From positions 1 through 43,482 of the forward strand of contig NZ_JAFZKX010000065.1 of assembly GCF_017551775.1 (NCBI RefSeq): DNA of 43,482 nt, written 5' to 3'. This document shows positions 1 to 28,732 of this stretch, piece after piece. Below the pieces are notes generated by a model. The model was given only the letters and a program-made list of their open reading frames with translations. It had not been told where the DNA came from and did no database searches. The stretch's first letter is position 1. Each line of letters opens with the position of its first letter. This DNA is from Fibrobacter sp. (GTDB lineage: Bacteria > Fibrobacterota > Fibrobacteria > Fibrobacterales > Fibrobacteraceae). Both the position numbers and the translations under genes were made by a program.

Positions 1-1
1 A

Positions 2-26
2 AGTGGGGCCTTACGGCTCCACTTTT
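2..26. terminator. Rho-independent-type hairpin, possibly bidirectional
   Basis: A 9-bp stem (2-10 with 15-23, one G-T pair) around the loop TTAC is followed by TTTT on the plus strand. It could end an upstream plus-strand gene outside the window. Read on the minus strand it lies just beyond the 3' end of tRNA-Ser, so it may also end that transcript; the U tract for that direction would fall outside the window. Confidence 0.6.
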
Positions 27-33
27 CGTTTCA

Positions 34-118
34 AGGAGAGAGAGGGATTCGAACCCTCGGACCTGTGACAGTCTCCGGATTTCGAGACCGGCCCAATCGA
101 CCACTCTGGCATCTCTCC
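34..118 (-). tRNA. tRNA-Ser (anticodon CGA)
   Basis: The minus strand folds as a class II tRNA. The acceptor stem is GGAGAGA (118-112) with TCTCTCC (41-35), the anticodon loop is CTCGAAA (anticodon CGA, reading UCG), there is a long variable arm as expected for serine, and the T arm is GAGGG-TTCGAAT-CCCTC. CCA is not encoded. Two mild oddities: the anticodon stem closes on a T-T mismatch (31-39), and the discriminator base would be U, whereas bacterial tRNA-Ser usually has G. A TAAATTAT box sits 9 nt upstream. Confidence 0.93.
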
Positions 119-127
119 AAGGTTCGC

Positions 128-135
128 ATAATTTA
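128..135 (-). promoter_or_regulatory. Putative -7 promoter element of tRNA-Ser
   Basis: TAAATTAT on the minus strand ends 9 nt before the first base of tRNA-Ser. It resembles the TAnnTTTG type of box found before many other genes here. Called by motif and position only. Confidence 0.4.
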
Positions 136-162
136 GTAAAGTTTTTGCGGTTTGTCTATATC

Positions 163-193
163 TTTGATTTTCCGCTGTTTATTTCTACATTTG
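163..193 (+). promoter_or_regulatory. Putative promoter of the DEAD-box helicase gene (TTTG-N19-TAnnTTTG)
   Basis: TACATTTG at 186-193 matches the Bacteroidetes-type -7 consensus TAnnTTTG, and TTTG at 163-166 lies 19 bp upstream where the -33 element belongs. The TTTG is itself part of another match, TATCTTTG at 159-166. A start near 198-200 would give a leader of about 130 nt. Confidence 0.5.
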
Positions 194-229
194 GCCTCAA
201 ATTATAGGGCCAAAGGACTTCAGGTTTAT

Positions 230-300
230 AAGCGCGAGTGCGCTTCGGGGCTTTTCTGGGTTCGCTACAAGAACCTTTCGATGGTGCGGCATGGGCCGCA
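230..300 (+). promoter_or_regulatory. Structured 5' leader of the helicase gene (two hairpins)
   Basis: Two short perfect hairpins lie in the presumed leader: AAGCGC-GAGT-GCGCTT at 230-245 and TGCGGC-ATGG-GCCGCA at 285-300. The second ends 30 nt before the ATG. Long structured leaders are known for cold-shock RNA helicase genes; a regulatory role here is inference. Confidence 0.35.
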
Positions 301-330
301 GATGAAGTTTAACGGCCCCGAAGGTGTATT

Positions 331-2739
331 ATGAAGCAAGGTACCGAAGAACGTATCCCTGAAGAAAATATCGATCCGAAATCCAAGATTGCGCAGGAGG
401 CGAATGCCTTCTTGAATGCCATCGCTGGTGGCGCCGACGAAGACGAGGCGGACGAAGCCGCGTTCCTCGCGTTGAATCCGAACGGTGTCGTTGTCGATGA
501 AGACGGCGACGTGCTCAGGAAGGGACCGAAGTCCGCTATCGAGATCGGCACGAAGGTCGAGTTCGAAGATGGCGAGGTCGAACAGGACGATGAAGATTAC
601 GCGGAATCCAAGAAGGATTGCGCCGAAAGTGCCGCTGCGAAAGTTGCGGAGGCGTTGCCCGAGGAACCCGCTGTAGAAACCGCAGATGAAATTGTGGAAC
701 CTGCCGTCGGCGCGTCCGATGATGAGGAACCTGCTGAAGATGCCGGCGATGAGTCGCTTGTTACCTTCGACGACCTGGGGCTTATTCCCGAGGTGCTCGA
801 GGCGGTGAAGAAGGCCGGTTACGAGACTCCGTCCCCGATTCAGGCGAAGGCTATCCCCGCATTGTTGCAGGGAGCGAACCTGCTGGGAACGGCCCAGACG
901 GGTACGGGAAAGACGGCCGCGTTCTCGCTGCCGCTCCTTTCGAGACTGCAGTTCAACGGGCACGAGACGTCGATGCTCGTTCTCACGCCGACGCGTGAAC
1001 TTGCCATCCAGGTGGCGGAAGCTATCCAGCAGTATGCGGTCAAGATGCCGAAGGTCCACGTGGTTCCGGTTTACGGCGGGCAGGATATCGCCATCCAGAT
1101 GCGTGCGCTCAAGCGCCAGGCGAACATCATCGTCGCAACTCCGGGCCGCCTTATCGACCACATCAAGCGCGGTTCCATCGTGCTTTCGGGTGTGAAGGCC
1201 ATCGTGCTCGACGAGGCCGACGAAATGCTCGACATGGGATTCATGGAAGACGTGGAGACCATTCTCAAGGAAATTCCCGCCGATGCCCAGCGCGCTCTTT
1301 TCAGTGCGACCATGCCGGCTGACGTGAAGAAGATTATTGAACAGCACCTGGGTGAATACGAAGAGGCGCGCATCGAAGGCAAGACGACGACGGTGGAAAA
1401 TATTCGTCAGCGCTTCTTGCTGGTGAAAAGCGAACACAAGATCGAGGCGCTTGCCCGCGTGCTCGAAGGTGAAGATTTTGATGGCGTGCTGATTTTTGTG
1501 CGCACCAAGCAGAACACCACCGAAGTCGCCGAGAAGTTGGAAAGTCGCGGCTTCAACGTGGCTCCGCTCAACGGTGACCTTGCGCAGTCGATGCGCGAAC
1601 GCACCATCAACCGTCTCAAGATGGGCAAGCTCGATATTGTCGTCGCCACCGACGTGGCCGCCCGCGGTATCGACGTGGACCGCATCTCGCTCGTGGTGAA
1701 CTACGACATTCCTTACGATACGGAATCCTACGTGCACCGCATTGGCCGCACGGGTCGTGCGGGCAGGAGCGGTAACGCCATCTTGTTCATCACCCCGCGC
1801 GAACGTCGCCTGTTGAAGACGATCGAAAAGGCTACCCGCCAGCCCATCGAGGCGATGGCGATGCCGACTTCTGAACAAATTAGCGAAAAGCGCGTCAGTG
1901 CGTTCAAGAACAAGGTGAAGAGCGTCGTGAGCTACGGCGAACTCGACAAGTTCAAGGCTCTTGTCCGAGCGATGGTTGAGGAAGGCTGCAACATGGAAAA
2001 CGGCGTGGTGCTCGAAGACGGTTCCGTTCGCGAAATGACCGCCGAAGATGTCGCCGCCGCTGTCATCAAGATGTACCAGAAGAAGCAGCCGTTGTTCCCG
2101 GAACTCGCTCCGCTCGATACGCCGAAGGAACGCCGTGAAAAGAAGCTCGGGGGGAGGGATTTCCTTGGGCGCGATTCCGAAAGGGCCGCCGGTGAATTCA
2201 GCGGCGAAGAAAAGAGCCGCCTGCGTAAGGAACGCAAGGAAGGCAACAACGGGGTCGAGGAAGGGTTCTTGCGCTACTACATGGGCGTCGGCCGCATGGA
2301 CCGCGTTACCCCGAAGGACATCGTGGGCGCCATCGCTGGCGAAGGCAACATCAGCAGCAGCAACATCGGGCGCATCAAGCTCTTCGACAGGTTCAGTACC
2401 GTCGAACTGCCCGAGACGCTCCCGCAAGAAGTTTTGGACATCCTCTCCGGGATGACGATTCGCGGGAACGATTCTCGCTTCCGTTTGATGACCGACGAAC
2501 CGCCTACCGGCCCGCGTGAAAGTCGTGAAGGCCGCCGCGGGTTCCATCGCGATGGCGACCGTCGTGGGCGCAAGTTCGAAGGCGACCGCCCGTTCGAAAA
2601 CCGCAGGGCCCGCCGCGAAAAGATGTTCGGCGACCGCAAGTTCGGCAATCGCGAAGACCGCCCGTTCCGCAAGGAACACGACGAACGCGGTTTCGGCGAC
2701 AAGCCTTTCCGCAAGACCCGCCGTTTCGGACGCGTGTAG
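331..2739 (+). CDS. deaD: DEAD-box ATP-dependent RNA helicase, CsdA/DeaD-like, with DbpA-type RNA-binding domain
   Basis: This 802-residue protein is a cytoplasmic RNA helicase of the kind that remodels rRNA or mRNA structure. An acidic, low-complexity N-terminal extension of about 140 residues precedes the Q motif (GYETPSPIQ). Then come motif I AQTGTGKT near residue 188, PTRELAIQ, DEAD near 294, SAT near 325, and motif VI HRIGRTGRAGRSG near 469. The C-terminal part carries a DbpA/CsdA-type RNA-binding domain (starting around YYMGVGRMDRVTPKD), then a basic Arg/Gly/Phe-rich tail typical of unspecific RNA contacts. The ATG at 331 has a weak GAAGG upstream. The acidic N-terminal extension is unusual for DeaD. 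The DeaD-class assignment is good; the exact paralogue name is less certain. Confidence 0.95.
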   Translation: MKQGTEERIPEENIDPKSKIAQEANAFLNAIAGGADEDEADEAAFLALNPNGVVVDEDGDVLRKGPKSAIEIGTKVEFEDGEVEQDDEDYAESKKDCAESAAAKVAEALPEEPAVETADEIVEPAVGASDDEEPAEDAGDESLVTFDDLGLIPEVLEAVKKAGYETPSPIQAKAIPALLQGANLLGTAQTGTGKTAAFSLPLLSRLQFNGHETSMLVLTPTRELAIQVAEAIQQYAVKMPKVHVVPVYGGQDIAIQMRALKRQANIIVATPGRLIDHIKRGSIVLSGVKAIVLDEADEMLDMGFMEDVETILKEIPADAQRALFSATMPADVKKIIEQHLGEYEEARIEGKTTTVENIRQRFLLVKSEHKIEALARVLEGEDFDGVLIFVRTKQNTTEVAEKLESRGFNVAPLNGDLAQSMRERTINRLKMGKLDIVVATDVAARGIDVDRISLVVNYDIPYDTESYVHRIGRTGRAGRSGNAILFITPRERRLLKTIEKATRQPIEAMAMPTSEQISEKRVSAFKNKVKSVVSYGELDKFKALVRAMVEEGCNMENGVVLEDGSVREMTAEDVAAAVIKMYQKKQPLFPELAPLDTPKERREKKLGGRDFLGRDSERAAGEFSGEEKSRLRKERKEGNNGVEEGFLRYYMGVGRMDRVTPKDIVGAIAGEGNISSSNIGRIKLFDRFSTVELPETLPQEVLDILSGMTIRGNDSRFRLMTDEPPTGPRESREGRRGFHRDGDRRGRKFEGDRPFENRRARREKMFGDRKFGNREDRPFRKEHDERGFGDKPFRKTRRFGRV

Positions 2740-2756
2740 TGCTCTTGAAAAAGTGT

Positions 2757-2764
2757 TATATTAG
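2757..2764 (+). promoter_or_regulatory. Putative -7 promoter element of the M16 peptidase gene
   Basis: TATATTAG lies 9 nt before the ATG at 2774 and 17 nt after the helicase stop codon. There is no clear Shine-Dalgarno sequence between box and start, so a very short leader is likely. Confidence 0.35.
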
Positions 2765-2773
2765 CCTCGCACA

Positions 2774-4045
2774 ATGAAGCAGATTGTAAAGAAGACAGTT
2801 CTCGATAACGGTATCACCATTCTTTCGGACTATATGCCGCATGCCTATTCCGTGGCCATGGGCGTATGGATTCCGCGCGGGAGCCGTCACGAGGCAAAAG
2901 ACGAATTTGGGCTGAGCCACTTTTACGAACACCTGGTGTTCAAGGGAACCGAAAACCGCACCGCGCTTGAAATTGCTCGTTCCGTCGAGGACAAGGGCGG
3001 AAACCTGGAAGCCTATACCACAAGGCAGGAGACCGGGTTCTACGCGCAGATTGAACGCAGCCACCTTCCGCTCGCCGTCGACGTGATCGCGGACATGCTC
3101 ATGCATCCGCGCATGGACAAGAAGGAGATGGAGAAGGAACGCCGCGTCATCATCGAGGAAATCCACAGCTACGACGACATTCCCGAAGAAATCGTGGGCG
3201 ACGTGTTCAACGCAATTCACTTCAAGGGTTGCGGCATCGCGCATTCCATTACCGGGAACATCAAGCAGGTAAAGGCCCTCACGCACAAGCAGATGCTCAA
3301 GTACAGGGCGCAGGTGACGGACGAAATCCCGCTGCTCGTTTGCGCTTCGGGCAAGGTCAATCATGAAGAGCTCGTGCAACTTTGTGCTGAAAAATTTGCG
3401 CAGAAAAAGACTCGCGGCGTATTGCCCGCAGATGCTTACCGGGCGCACAACAGCGTGAAGGTCGTGCAGAAGCAGGACATCGCGCAGTCGAACCTTTTCT
3501 GGGGCCTGAGCTTTGACCGCAACTTGATGGACGAGCGCGGACGTTGCGCCCTTTCGCTGTTCAACGTGGCGATGGGTGCGGGCATGGCGAGCCGCCTGTT
3601 CCAGAAAATTCGCGAAGACAAGGGACTCGCTTATTCCGTGTATTCCACTGCGGACATCTACTGCGATTGCACCGACTGGGGCGTATCGCTTGCCACCGAA
3701 CCGCACCAGCTCAAGACGGCGCTCGAGCTTTCGCTGAACGAGACCCGCAACTTTTTGAAACGCGGATTCAACAAGGGTGAATTTGAACGCACCAAGACGA
3801 ACATCCTGGGCGGCATGTACCTCGGCGCCGACAGCCCCGAGAAGCGCGTTGTCCGCATGGCGGAACAGACCTTGCATCTCGGTGAATTCCACACGATGGA
3901 ACACTCCGAAAAAATCATCACCTCCATGACAGAGGAAGAAGTCGTCGCGACTACGAACAAGCTGTTCAACGCCGCGAAGTTCTCCGCCGCAGTCATCGAG
4001 CCCGCCGGCCGCAAGAAGACCGAACTGGACGTAGACTTTTTCTAA
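2774..4045 (+). CDS. M16 family zinc peptidase (processing-peptidase-like)
   Basis: A 423-residue peptidase of the M16 family (insulinase/mitochondrial processing peptidase type). The inverted zinc motif HxxEH is present as HFYEH at residues 49-53, and the distal acidic ligand region EKERRVIIEEIHSYDD follows about 75 residues later, so it looks catalytically intact. The C-terminal half has the usual second M16 domain (FNVAMGAGMASRLFQKIRE, with the R/Y-type GLAYSV segment). There is no signal peptide, unlike the second M16 protein at 11293, so it should act in the cytoplasm. Length fits the single-chain bacterial M16B type. Substrate unknown. Confidence 0.92.
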   Translation: MKQIVKKTVLDNGITILSDYMPHAYSVAMGVWIPRGSRHEAKDEFGLSHFYEHLVFKGTENRTALEIARSVEDKGGNLEAYTTRQETGFYAQIERSHLPLAVDVIADMLMHPRMDKKEMEKERRVIIEEIHSYDDIPEEIVGDVFNAIHFKGCGIAHSITGNIKQVKALTHKQMLKYRAQVTDEIPLLVCASGKVNHEELVQLCAEKFAQKKTRGVLPADAYRAHNSVKVVQKQDIAQSNLFWGLSFDRNLMDERGRCALSLFNVAMGAGMASRLFQKIREDKGLAYSVYSTADIYCDCTDWGVSLATEPHQLKTALELSLNETRNFLKRGFNKGEFERTKTNILGGMYLGADSPEKRVVRMAEQTLHLGEFHTMEHSEKIITSMTEEEVVATTNKLFNAAKFSAAVIEPAGRKKTELDVDFF

Positions 4046-23203: not shown

Positions 23204-23671
23204 CTAATTTTTGGGGGGAGTCTTTCCTTTAAATAAATACTGATAGTATCGGAAAATAACTTTTGTTATCGGAACATCATGGCCGCCCTGCATCACTCGT
23301 TTAGCAATTCGTGCAGCGTTAATGGACGGGTGACTCGTAGCGACAAAAAAGATACGGATAAAATAACCAGCCAGTTTTGCTCGATTGATAAAATCGACCT
23401 TGCCGTCTGAAGAAAGAACACTCTCAAAAATGAGGCTTTTCCGCTGTTTAAGGCAATCTTCACGCAAAGATTCACAATACTGAACAGCCTTAAGAACCGC
23501 CTCAGGAGAATTCCAATCCCCAAAGCGATCCTGGGCAACAACATCGGGATTGATGTAAACAGCATCTTCCATCCATTCATGGCGAAGGATTTTGGATGTA
23601 ATTGTCGTTTTTCCAGACCCATTTGGACCGGCAATCACGATTAGCACAGGGCGATGTTCAGTCGGAGACAT
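23204..23671 (-). CDS. Zeta-toxin-like P-loop kinase, apparently shortened at the C-terminus
   Basis: A 155-residue protein with the zeta/UDP-N-acetylglucosamine kinase-like P-loop AGPNGSGKTT (residues 14-23), YINPDVVAQDRFG, an acidic/catalytic region LIFESVLSS, and the late Arg motif RIAKRVMQGGHDVP. Related proteins usually continue for about 40 residues after GGHDVP; here the reading frame ends after only about 20 (RYYQYLFKGKTPPKN). The C-terminus may therefore be frameshifted or lost. Zeta toxins phosphorylate UDP-GlcNAc and block cell-wall synthesis; non-toxic kinases share the fold. The start at 23671 is 2 nt after the stop of a small partner gene, the usual toxin-antitoxin layout. An upstream ATG (23698) would overlap that partner. 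Confidence 0.8.
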   Translation of the reverse strand: MSPTEHRPVLIVIAGPNGSGKTTITSKILRHEWMEDAVYINPDVVAQDRFGDWNSPEAVLKAVQYCESLREDCLKQRKSLIFESVLSSDGKVDFINRAKLAGYFIRIFFVATSHPSINAARIAKRVMQGGHDVPITKVIFRYYQYLFKGKTPPKN

Positions 23672-23673
23672 AA

Positions 23674-23835
23674 CTAGCGGATTTTTGCTGCAGCGCATTT
23701 GAGTTCGGCGAAATAACGGGCGGTGGCTTCGGCATCAGCCTTGCGGGCATCGTCAAAAGCCTCTTTCATCAACTGTGAAAGAAGCTCGTCCGATGGTTCC
23801 TCGGTGCTAGTCAACTTATAAGTATCCAAAGTCAT
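23674..23835 (-). CDS. Small protein upstream of the zeta-like kinase, putative antitoxin
   Basis: A 53-residue reading frame (start MTLDTYKLTSTEEPSDELLS, end AAAKIR) with a good ribosome-binding site GAGGTGG 4 nt before the ATG. It is acidic at the N-terminus and helical (LMKEAFDDARKADAEATARY). It ends 2 nt before the kinase start, so translation is coupled. Size, composition and position fit the small partner often found before zeta-like kinases; antitoxin function is inferred. Confidence 0.75.
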   Translation of the reverse strand: MTLDTYKLTSTEEPSDELLSQLMKEAFDDARKADAEATARYFAELKCAAAKIR

Positions 23836-25193: not shown

Positions 25194-25550
25194 TTACAAA
25201 ATTAAATTTCCTTTTTTCCATTCGTCAAGTGTCATTTTGGCAGATACGGCCAGCAGACTGTTCGAAACTTCGCCAAGGGCGGTCAAAACCTTTTTAGATT
25301 CCTCATGCGAAATTACAAGATAATGCGTTGCGGCCCAAAGCCTTGTTCCCATAGACGGAGCGGAAAGTAATTCATGAAAAGCATCGCTGGTCAAAGCACC
25401 TTGAGCCTTGATTTGCTGATAAACTGCCATCAATTCGTCGTAGGCTTTATTCGCCTTTTTATGGTTGCCCGTTTCTATTGCGTCGCCATACAAATCTGAA
25501 AGGTAAGCATATTCTAAAATCAAGTTTTCGTGAGAGTTTTTCTTCTTCAT
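25194..25550 (-). CDS. DUF2019-like small helical protein
   Basis: A 118-residue soluble helical protein. The pattern TRLWAATHYLVISHEES then KKVLTALGEV and MTLDEWKKGNL resembles DUF2019-type proteins (HEAT-like helices ending in a W-x-x-G motif) from memory of the family; I could not check this. Such proteins often occur in clusters near toxin or effector genes, but no function is proven. The start at 25550 has GGAG 7 nt upstream. A broken copy of its C-terminal third lies at 23880-24005. Confidence 0.7.
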   Translation of the reverse strand: MKKKNSHENLILEYAYLSDLYGDAIETGNHKKANKAYDELMAVYQQIKAQGALTSDAFHELLSAPSMGTRLWAATHYLVISHEESKKVLTALGEVSNSLLAVSAKMTLDEWKKGNLIL

Positions 25551-25568
25551 TTTGACGCTCCGCACTTA

Positions 25569-26114: not shown

Positions 26115-26351
26115 CTAGGGTTCGTCGGATTCTGGGGCCGATTCCTTCTGGGTGCGGATGTTTTCCATCAGGAAGTGGATGGCCTTGAGGCGGCCGTTGC
26201 ATTTTTCGATGCAGTTGTCGTAAAACCCCTTGGTTTTTTCGTCCCATTCGGGGACGATTTCGGAGGCGTACAGGAAGTGCTCCACGCAGATGGAAAGCTG
26301 GTCCGCTTCGCGGCGCAGGTCGTCGAGGTTTGATCTAGTGAAGAATGCCAT
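26115..26351 (-). CDS. Small helical hypothetical protein
   Basis: Function not recognised. A 78-residue charged helical protein (MAFFTRSNLDDLRREADQLS, then CVEHFLYASEIVP, ending ESAPESDEP). It is G+C-richer than the other genes of the cluster, in line with the housekeeping genes, and lies at its upstream border. The overlapping plus-strand frame has no start signal and poorer composition. The 79 bases to the next gene hold nothing I recognise. Confidence 0.55.
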   Translation of the reverse strand: MAFFTRSNLDDLRREADQLSICVEHFLYASEIVPEWDEKTKGFYDNCIEKCNGRLKAIHFLMENIRTQKESAPESDEP

Positions 26352-26426
26352 AATGATAAAGATAAAAAAGAAAAGTCGTCCTAAGAGGTGGCTTGCACAT
26401 GGTTTGGGGTGGCTTTTTTGACACTC

Positions 26427-26466
26427 TTACATACTAAAACGGCAAAAGAGATGAAAAAGTATGTAA
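26427..26466. repeat. Inverted-repeat unit 1 (10-bp arms, 20-bp core)
   Basis: TTACATACTA at 26427-26436, a 20-bp core, then AAGTATGTAA at 26457-26466. One outer base of the core-side arm differs (A for T), but the match extends outward by TC/GA. Confidence 0.85.
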
Positions 26467-26500
26467 GAATGTGGACGTGTGGGGGAATTCGCGTGATGCT

Positions 26501-26540
26501 TTACATACTAGATGTCGGAAAATGCTTTGTTAGTATGTAA
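26501..26540. repeat. Inverted-repeat unit 2 (10-bp arms, 20-bp core)
   Basis: TTACATACTA at 26501-26510, a 20-bp core of different sequence, then TAGTATGTAA at 26531-26540. Perfect arms, extending one more base pair outward. Confidence 0.9.
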
Positions 26541-26580
26541 AATAAACTGTTAAAAGTGCTTTTTGATTGTTAGTTTATTT
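26540..26580. repeat. Additional inverted repeat AAATAAACT/AGTTTATTT
   Basis: Arms at 26540-26548 and 26572-26580 with 23 bp between. It lies between units 2 and 3 and shares its first base with unit 2. Different sequence from the TTACATACTA arms. Confidence 0.5.
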
Positions 26581-26595
26581 GTGATTTTGCGAAAA

Positions 26596-26635
26596 TTACA
26601 TACTAAAGCCCTCCAACAGGCAAAATAGTATGTAA
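26596..26635. repeat. Inverted-repeat unit 3 (10-bp arms, 20-bp core)
   Basis: TTACATACTA at 26596-26605, a 20-bp core of different sequence, then TAGTATGTAA at 26626-26635. Same geometry as units 1 and 2. Confidence 0.9.
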
Positions 26636-26671
26636 GGGACGTATTTTTGAACTCAAATTGATTAAATAACA

Positions 26672-26683: not shown

Positions 26684-28732
26684 ATGTTGAAGAGGTTGCC
26701 TTTCATCTTGATTGCGCTGATGGCGGTTGCTGCGATGGCGGCGACTTCCGCCGTGACGGGCTCGTTCATGGATTTGCGCGATGGCCACGTCTACAAGACA
26801 GCCACAATCGGCTCGCAGACGTGGATGGCGGAGAACCTGAATTACGAAGCAGACTATAGCCGTTGCTATGGGGGCGATTATGCTGCTTGCGCCAGGGAAG
26901 GGCAGCTGTACGAATGGAAAAGTGCAATGATCGCATGTCCTGCGGGTTGGCATCTTCCGAGTAAAAGCGAATTTGAGATGTTGTTCGAAGCCGTGGGCGG
27001 GAAGTCGGTCGCAGGGAAAATGCTCAAGTCAAAACATGGTTGGCGCGACATGTCGGGCAAGGAATCGGCTGGCAACGGCACGGATGCGTTCTCGTTCTCT
27101 GCCAGTCCCGATATCAGGAGGAGCTGGGACGCGAACTTCTGGATTTCCGAGGGAGATGACAACTTTATATACTATGTAAGCCTGAGTTATTATAGCGATA
27201 GTGTGTTTATAAACTATGCAGGTAGCCTGCCGAGGATTAGCGATTCCTGGTATAACGTTCGCTGTGTCAAGGATGAATCTGCGGAGCCTTTTTCTTTCAA
27301 GAAAGACAAAGGGTTTGTCAAGTTTATTCCGGATTATATTATGCCGGATTACCGTAATGGGCATATAAAGGACTTTCGTGATGGTTTGACCTACAGGACG
27401 GTCACTATTGGCGACCAGACGTGGATGGCGGAAAACCTGAATTACGAGGCAGATGGTAGCGCTTGCTACGAAGATAGCACAAGTAATTGCGACAAGTACG
27501 GGCGCCTCTACACTTGGGGGGCGGCAAAAGACGCTTGCCCGTCAGGATGGCGCTTGCCGAAAATGAAAGAGTTCCTTACGTTGTTTGAAAATGTAGGCGG
27601 GTCATCGACCGCTGCCAAAATGCTAAAATCCAGGACAGGATGGCATTGGCATGTTTGGGAAAGCGACCATTATGTGAGTACAAAACCGATAAGAACTAGA
27701 AGGAAAAGCATAATGACGGACGGCAATGGCATAGATGCATTTTCGTTTACCGCCTTGCCCGAAAGCGATCGCGGCGAGAATGTGTGCTTCTGGAGTTCTG
27801 ACGGGTTTGATTCTGAAAGCAATTTCAAGTATGCCATGACAATGGAGTATATGATGGATGAGGCGAACTACAACTCTTTCTATACCGAAGATGACTTCTT
27901 TGGAGGTCCGTATTGGTGTGCTGTCCGTTGCTTCAAGGAAAAAACTGCAAAAAAGACCAAGGAACCGTCGCCTGCAAAAGTTGAAAATGCGGTAAAATTT
28001 AAGATGGATGATTTTAGACTTGTAACGGATTATAACGTGACGGATTATCGTAGCGGGATTATGACGGATGAACGTGACGGGCAAAAATACAGGACGGTTG
28101 TCATAGGCAAGCAGACGTGGATGGCGGAAAACCTGAATTACAGGACGGAAGGAAGCTATTGCTACGATGATGACGAACTGACCTGTTTCCAGTATGGCCG
28201 CCTTTATAAATGGGAGCCAGCAACGGATGCCTGCCCAGCCGGTTGGCATCTGCCGAGCTATAAGGAAATTCTGGACTTGAAAATAGAACTGAGCCATGAA
28301 GTGTACAATGATTCGGTTTCCGCCGACATGCTCAAATCCAGGACGGGATGGAAAAGTGTGGTAGACTCGTCGGGACCGATGTGCAAGAATCTTTTGCTAT
28401 GTGGAAGTGAACGGAAGGGGACGGATTTGTTCGGGTTCTCTGTGCTACCGACGGGATTCAGGGTGAGCGACAGGTTAAATAGTAAGGCAATTCTTAATCT
28501 TCTGAGAGAGATTCATTACTTGCATGCTGATGAAAAGTATGAATCGAAAAAACATAGCGATTACCGAGGCGAGGGTGAACAGGCGCTTTTCTGGACGTCC
28601 TCGGAGGTGTTTATAAGCAGGAATAAAGGAGGAAAAGTGCATCTCGCCTCTTTTGAATACAAGTATGGCGGAATTGGCCTAGAATATGGCGATAAAGATA
28701 ACGGCTATTCTGTCCGCTGCGTAAAGGACTAA
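26684..28732 (+). CDS. Secreted protein with three Fibrobacter major paralogous domains
   Basis: A 682-residue exported protein (signal peptide MLKRLPFILIALMAVAAMAA). It carries three tandem copies of the Fibrobacter succinogenes major paralogous domain (TIGR02145 type): about residues 26-205, 225-410 and 455-682. Each copy opens with (F/L)RDG..Y.T..IG.QTWMAENLNY, then C(Y)...C...GxLY.W..A...CP(A/S)GW(H/R)LP, and ends near a W(C)xVRC(V/F)K motif. The domain is abundant in Fibrobacter, related to the C-type-lectin-like fold, and thought to sit on the cell surface; the ligand is unknown. The second and third copies carry long insertions. A leaderless-type promoter box lies 4 nt before the ATG. 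Confidence 0.95.
   Translation: MLKRLPFILIALMAVAAMAATSAVTGSFMDLRDGHVYKTATIGSQTWMAENLNYEADYSRCYGGDYAACAREGQLYEWKSAMIACPAGWHLPSKSEFEMLFEAVGGKSVAGKMLKSKHGWRDMSGKESAGNGTDAFSFSASPDIRRSWDANFWISEGDDNFIYYVSLSYYSDSVFINYAGSLPRISDSWYNVRCVKDESAEPFSFKKDKGFVKFIPDYIMPDYRNGHIKDFRDGLTYRTVTIGDQTWMAENLNYEADGSACYEDSTSNCDKYGRLYTWGAAKDACPSGWRLPKMKEFLTLFENVGGSSTAAKMLKSRTGWHWHVWESDHYVSTKPIRTRRKSIMTDGNGIDAFSFTALPESDRGENVCFWSSDGFDSESNFKYAMTMEYMMDEANYNSFYTEDDFFGGPYWCAVRCFKEKTAKKTKEPSPAKVENAVKFKMDDFRLVTDYNVTDYRSGIMTDERDGQKYRTVVIGKQTWMAENLNYRTEGSYCYDDDELTCFQYGRLYKWEPATDACPAGWHLPSYKEILDLKIELSHEVYNDSVSADMLKSRTGWKSVVDSSGPMCKNLLLCGSERKGTDLFGFSVLPTGFRVSDRLNSKAILNLLREIHYLHADEKYESKKHSDYRGEGEQALFWTSSEVFISRNKGGKVHLASFEYKYGGIGLEYGDKDNGYSVRCVKD

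Follow-up and report, generated by a model that had tools for sequence, protein, structure and literature searches.

RAYT-REPIN systems consist of a REP-associated tyrosine transposase (a Y1/HUH protein) and dispersed REP doublets, in which a gene of one specificity has matching palindromic units beside it, and several specificities within a genus co-evolve with the protein (PMC3116915, PMC8266576). Their dispersed intergenic copies, which number in the hundreds, have conserved ends and a variable interior. LTR elements carry a coding region between long direct repeats and can be found as empty, full and solo-repeat alleles at one site. In the prophage defence system BstA, a DNA element (aba) within the gene's own locus suppresses abortive infection and is cognate to protein variants (PMC8585504). 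The res sites of Tn3-type elements comprise three resolvase dimer sites, that is, three inverted half-site pairs with unequal spacing and variable cores. A/T phased with each helical turn, as in REP/BIME gyrase sites and nucleosome-type positioning DNA, is found in wrapped or curved DNA. The array described here shares features with each of these, but we found no description of it in Fibrobacter, nor of such a system elsewhere, in the part of the literature that was searched.

The window analysed is a 43,482-nucleotide contig of Fibrobacter sp. (NZ_JAFZKX010000065.1, assembly GCF_017551775.1), here contig C65 of genome G000 (3.2 Mb, 114 contigs); G, C and L numbers denote genomes of the comparison set, their contigs and individual loci, respectively. 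The first-pass annotation had reported three units of identical 10-bp inverted arms around unrelated 20-bp cores, and this observation was confirmed. The units are located at 26427-26466, 26501-26540 and 26596-26635, with gaps of 34 and 55 bp. Unit 1 has the arms TTACATACTA and AAGTATGTAA, the latter (26457-26466) with one mismatch, while units 2 and 3 have perfect arms. Dinucleotide shuffles of the window gave no units, and the remaining one-mismatch half-sites in the window are unpaired (16517) or lie inside the adjacent surface-protein gene (27165, 27170). The annotation's remark that no other copies were noticed holds for the window only, as eleven more good units are present elsewhere in the genome; its fourteen units are found as three each on C47, C59, C65 and C95, with single matches on C97 and C100. 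The cores are unrelated in sequence, as had been stated, but are not structureless, with the four central bases being about 80-95% A/T.

Units of the form TTACATACYA-N20-TRGTATGTAA, mostly in arrays of three to four, were identified with a two-mismatch pattern in 24 of 111 genomes of the family, all of them among the 80 Fibrobacter genomes searched, and a reversed control pattern was essentially never found. All 40 exact-match stretches in 84,980 species genomes are Fibrobacter(ales). A scan of viral contigs gave one isolated hit with a fully palindromic core (L056:7355-7394), probably an unrelated hairpin. Across species the core is 19, 20 or 21 bp and almost nothing else, and position 9 of the arm is C or T. 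In 53 non-identical array pairs (mostly orthologous), arms differ at 2.5% of positions, cores at 19% and linkers at 21%, although some ascertainment bias is present as arms helped to find the units. Arms change mostly one at a time (102 one-arm changes against 22 matched changes), which fits half-site recognition.

The annotation had noted arms three helical turns apart, and this property extends to the spacing between units. In the window the units lie 74 and 95 bp centre to centre (seven and nine turns), and elsewhere as 63-136(-63), 63-147 and 84-84(-84) bp. Over gene-linked arrays with about 40 different arm sequences, 117 distinct neighbouring distances fall on multiples of 10.5-10.6 bp (R=0.948, Rayleigh about 1e-46); this value treats related loci as independent and so overstates significance, but no distance class falls between turns. 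In 31 linkers of 94-98 bp the A/T fraction swings between about 0.35 and 0.95 with a period of 10.3-10.5 bp (z about 49 against shuffles). The whole window array (26427-26635) shows the same periodicity with its arms masked (0 of 500 shuffles reached it), while its neighbouring stretches do not, and about half of the arrays of other arm types show it clearly. The DNA is therefore probably wrapped, although wrapping itself is an inference.

Clustering of the neighbours of arrays brought up one recurrent gene family of approximately 272 amino acids, located downstream of arrays. Close and distant paralogues were identified among the 80 Fibrobacter genomes, with up to eight per genome. It was predicted before inspection that distant paralogues would carry arrays of the same geometry with other arms, and this was found to be the case, with arms including GGGCGTATAA, GTACCTATAA, ATGCATATAA, GGGCATATAA, TTACGGACTA, TGGGTACCAA (the second copy of this genome) and ATAGGACTAA. 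Using a uniform detector, 58 of 90 upstream regions scored at least 40 and 76 had at least two units, against 0 of 90 shuffled regions, and nine of the remaining genes have a downstream array, so that 85 of the 87 full-length members have an array on one side or the other. A member in another genus of the family (L254) also has one, and full-length homologues seem to exist in Firmicutes/Bacillota. The human-gut relative L150 has no upstream array and no closer relatives in plasmid or phage records, and no array was found upstream of three short ORFs (L256, L257 and L258; 106-119 aa) resembling only the N-terminal, putatively DNA-reading part of the family.

The C-terminus of these proteins is PD-(D/E)XK-like, with residues E161, D192, E207 and H208 present in 99-100% of 70 members, although the usual lysine is absent from the last motif (ExH-like). 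Searches of Pfam, NCBIfam, PHROG and PDB returned no match confirming this fold, the PDB profile searches giving only chance hits, and an AlphaFold model from five sequences was too poor to use (pLDDT 39). The assignment rests on the E...PD...ExH pattern, similarity to the C-terminus of the candidate defence protein PDC-S68 of PADLOC and fusion of the domain to a RecD-like helicase in an IMG/VR viral contig (L222, ORF 1-3402). Among 45 non-redundant members, arm distance correlates best with protein residues 34-62 (r=0.54). In partial Mantel tests this remained at r=0.44 (p=0.002) given the nuclease-like domain, whereas the nuclease-like domain given residues 34-62 explained nothing (r=-0.03); these values likewise treat related loci as independent. 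In this stretch 'NH' goes with TTACATAC, 'CR' with GTACCTATAA and 'HK' with GGGC(A/G)TATAA. G000 and G087 share the downstream part of the gene and its flank, but the first approximately 53 codons and the array are unrelated and the arms differ, showing that domain and array were replaced together.

Genomes with at least three TTACATAC units are mostly those with an 'NH'-type gene (10 of 14, against 2 of 66 others; p=3.6e-8), the four without a detected cognate gene being G039, G071, G081 and G086. The likely partner of the window array is G000:C47:1364-2179, itself preceded by a 63-137 array. In G081, which holds thirteen TTACATAC units, the gene at the shared locus carries a GGGCGTATAA array while TTACATAC arrays remain elsewhere, possibly reflecting a recent specificity switch. 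A lone GGGCGTATAA-type unit in G000 (C6:31620-31658; L153, L219), shared with G036 and (one base longer) G081, is a probable orphan as no cognate gene was found in this genome. In G060, where no cognate gene was detected, a TGGGTACCAA array (L278, C5:110897-111149) sits upstream of the same tRNA-Asp that in G000 has a TTACATAC array downstream.

Several genes are bracketed by arrays as long direct repeats: L269 (96% identity over 277 bp), L273 (92% over 269 bp), L272 (91% over 253 bp), L104 (94% over 176 bp) and L138 (81% over 315 bp), with L140 and L118 also having repeats at both ends. Most other members, including the one in this genome, have an array on one side only. In L273 the repeat ends at the outer arms. 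At this site six relatives have the empty site with flanks joined, five (G022, G025, G083, G084 and G086) have array-gene-array, and G088 has a single array with the same flanks; no target-site duplication was seen at the junction. Recombination between the repeats is the simplest route to the solo allele. A second element (L118, about 1.9 kb) is present in two genomes and absent in five close relatives. Arrays at unrelated loci share 52-60% of core and linker positions (expected 40%, column-shuffled null maximum about 50%; pairs were selected for interior similarity), with similarity starting at the outer arm and not extending to the flanks.

The window array is a solo copy. Its slot (26369-26670) holds the array in G000, G027 and G080, and what we read from the ORFs as a HigBA-like toxin-antitoxin pair in G081, G087, G089 and G060 (L181, L182 and L184 for G081, G087 and G060), with flanks 84-98% identical. 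On the left is a 78-aa ORF without a Pfam match (26115-26351, reverse strand), which lies in the conserved flank, and on the right a Fib_succ_major (FISUMP) surface-protein gene (26684-28732, forward strand; PF09603). The gene cluster left of the array includes a zeta-toxin-like kinase ORF (23204-23698, reverse strand; PF06414, 3e-14) and a DUF2019 protein (25194-25565). A promoter-like element, TTGTTAGTTTATTTG (26567-26581, forward strand), lies in the linker between units 2 and 3 and points to the FISUMP gene; the element, TTGTTA(C/G)TTTGTG, recurs at fixed offsets in other arrays, so that local effects on transcription are possible, although promoter function is inferred.

We consider the best explanation, with a probability of about 0.75, to be that the array is a solo copy of a dispersed element made of phased, inverted half-sites. 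In this view, the cognate protein would recognise each 10-11 bp arm with its N-terminal beta-hairpin region (residues about 34-62), one dimer would sit on each unit, and three to four dimers would assemble on one face of intrinsically curved DNA, wrapping 200-300 bp into a compact complex. Gene plus arrays would behave as an LTR-like mobile system whose arm specificity diversifies by replacement of the N-terminal domain together with the array, and loss of the gene by recombination between the repeats could leave a solo array. The geometry, helical phasing, A/T periodicity, arm conservation, co-variation of arms with residues 34-62, direct-repeat flanking and the three allelic states are demonstrated by the analysis, whereas binding, dimerisation, cooperative wrapping, nuclease activity (putatively near the A/T core centre), autoregulation from the upstream array and recombination as the route to solo arrays are inferred from sequence alone.

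The interpretations offered in the first-pass annotation were partly supported. Its cooperative DNA-binding reading, with arms in helical register, is strongly supported, and its recombinase or transposase-site reading is supported in spirit, as arrays are presence/absence polymorphic, occur as direct repeats around a nuclease-like gene and are found as solo copies. Its RNA-hairpin reading is not supported and appears very unlikely. Arms are complementary, and in the divergent subfamilies L269 and L272 they resemble intrinsic terminators (GGCGGGGTT..AACCCCGCTTTTT), so that arrays may double as terminators there, but one-arm changes predominate, both wobble polarities occur in one array and spacing and linker A/T follow the helix. 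That this is a chance or private repeat without function is equally unlikely: the interior similarity of arrays at different loci shows that copies did spread, but the motif is not absent elsewhere, so the annotation's own refuting condition did not hold, and arms are conserved about eight-fold better than cores in orthologous arrays and track a specific protein region.

An autoregulatory operator with a regulon, in which the protein is a transcription factor, the nuclease fold is used for binding only and solo arrays loop DNA at target promoters, remains possible but unlikely. Arrays sit about 40-400 bp before the family gene, the promoter-like element points to the neighbouring gene in several cases, and the window array is in a divergent promoter region. 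However, by our count with a simple gene caller, about eleven independent solo loci are convergent, ten tandem and eight divergent, with some convergent arrays 1-20 bp from stop codons. The C95 array lies between a tRNA-Asp terminator and a convergent gene and is absent in G020, G027, G036, G080 and G087, so promoter control cannot be the general role. A simple operator reading, like the simple promoter that the annotation had already doubted, is thus insufficient. Neighbours also look functionally unrelated (adenylosuccinate-synthetase-like, methyltransferase-like, FISUMP), the putative catalytic residues are invariant or nearly so, and direct-repeat flanking and empty and solo alleles are not expected of operators. 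It is also conceivable, though doubtful, that chromosomal arrays, in a BstA-aba-like manner, titrate or switch off a defence nuclease so that it acts only on invading DNA. Cognate pairs with diversified specificity, the domain shared with PDC-S68 and helicase fusions, patchy presence and arms under constraint wherever they lie would fit such a self-immunity role, here proposed from sequence alone, but some genomes keep arrays without a detected cognate gene, and in G000, G036 and G087 the TGGGTACCAA array type is found only at its gene.

A bolder reading, about as likely as not, is a new class of prokaryotic mobile element: a site-specific PD-(D/E)XK-type nuclease with an exchangeable DNA-reading hairpin, bracketed by nucleosome-like wrapped arrays of its own binding sites, propagating through array-to-array recombination or homing and leaving solo arrays, with specificity switching by joint replacement of reading domain and array. 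If true, this would add a mobile or selfish element type that uses neither a known transposase, an integrase nor an RNA guide, and a natural set of about 40 protein-DNA specificity pairs in which a short hairpin region appears to read a 10-bp half-site in a fixed architecture, making DNA-recognition rules, specificity switching and the evolution of solo repeats directly testable. It also names a candidate binding partner for an otherwise unexplained repeat found near surface-protein genes of cellulose-degrading rumen bacteria.

Compared with described systems, the array is not CRISPR-like, as its arms are inverted, linkers range from 23 to 117 bp and the neighbouring gene is not Cas; geometry and neighbours likewise rule out an integron-like reading, and the cores drift between orthologues and are not spacers. 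Unlike in Tn3-type res sites, there is no serine recombinase, the cores share no fixed crossover dinucleotide and about 40 arm specificities exist. Sequence-specific arms with a cognate diversified protein distinguish the arrays from REP/BIME gyrase sites and nucleosome-type positioning DNA, with which they share A/T phasing over about 200 bp. The aba element is 63 bp with terminal direct repeats overlapping the start codon (PMC8585504), whereas here phased inverted arms are dispersed in the genome and the protein is unrelated. RAYT-REPIN repeat doublets fold as ssDNA or RNA hairpins; the arms here are complementary but vary mostly independently. As in RAYT-REPIN, dispersed extragenic palindromic units match those beside the gene, conserved ends flank a variable interior and several specificities within the genus co-evolve with the protein, but 27 diverse members scanned against Pfam gave no Y1_Tnp or other transposase match, the units are 40-bp inverted half-sites in phased arrays of three to four with A/T-phased linkers, copies are few (roughly 3-12 arrays), and the gene can be bracketed by arrays as direct repeats. 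As in LTR elements, long direct repeats and solo alleles occur, but the repeats are arrays of paired half-sites, the single ORF has no reverse transcriptase or integrase domain and no target-site duplication was seen. The system works most like RAYT-REPIN (PMC3116915) in its gene and dispersed-unit logic and like LTR elements in its allelic states, while lacking the protein that defines either, and BstA-aba offers a functional analogy for its cognate protein-DNA pairs.
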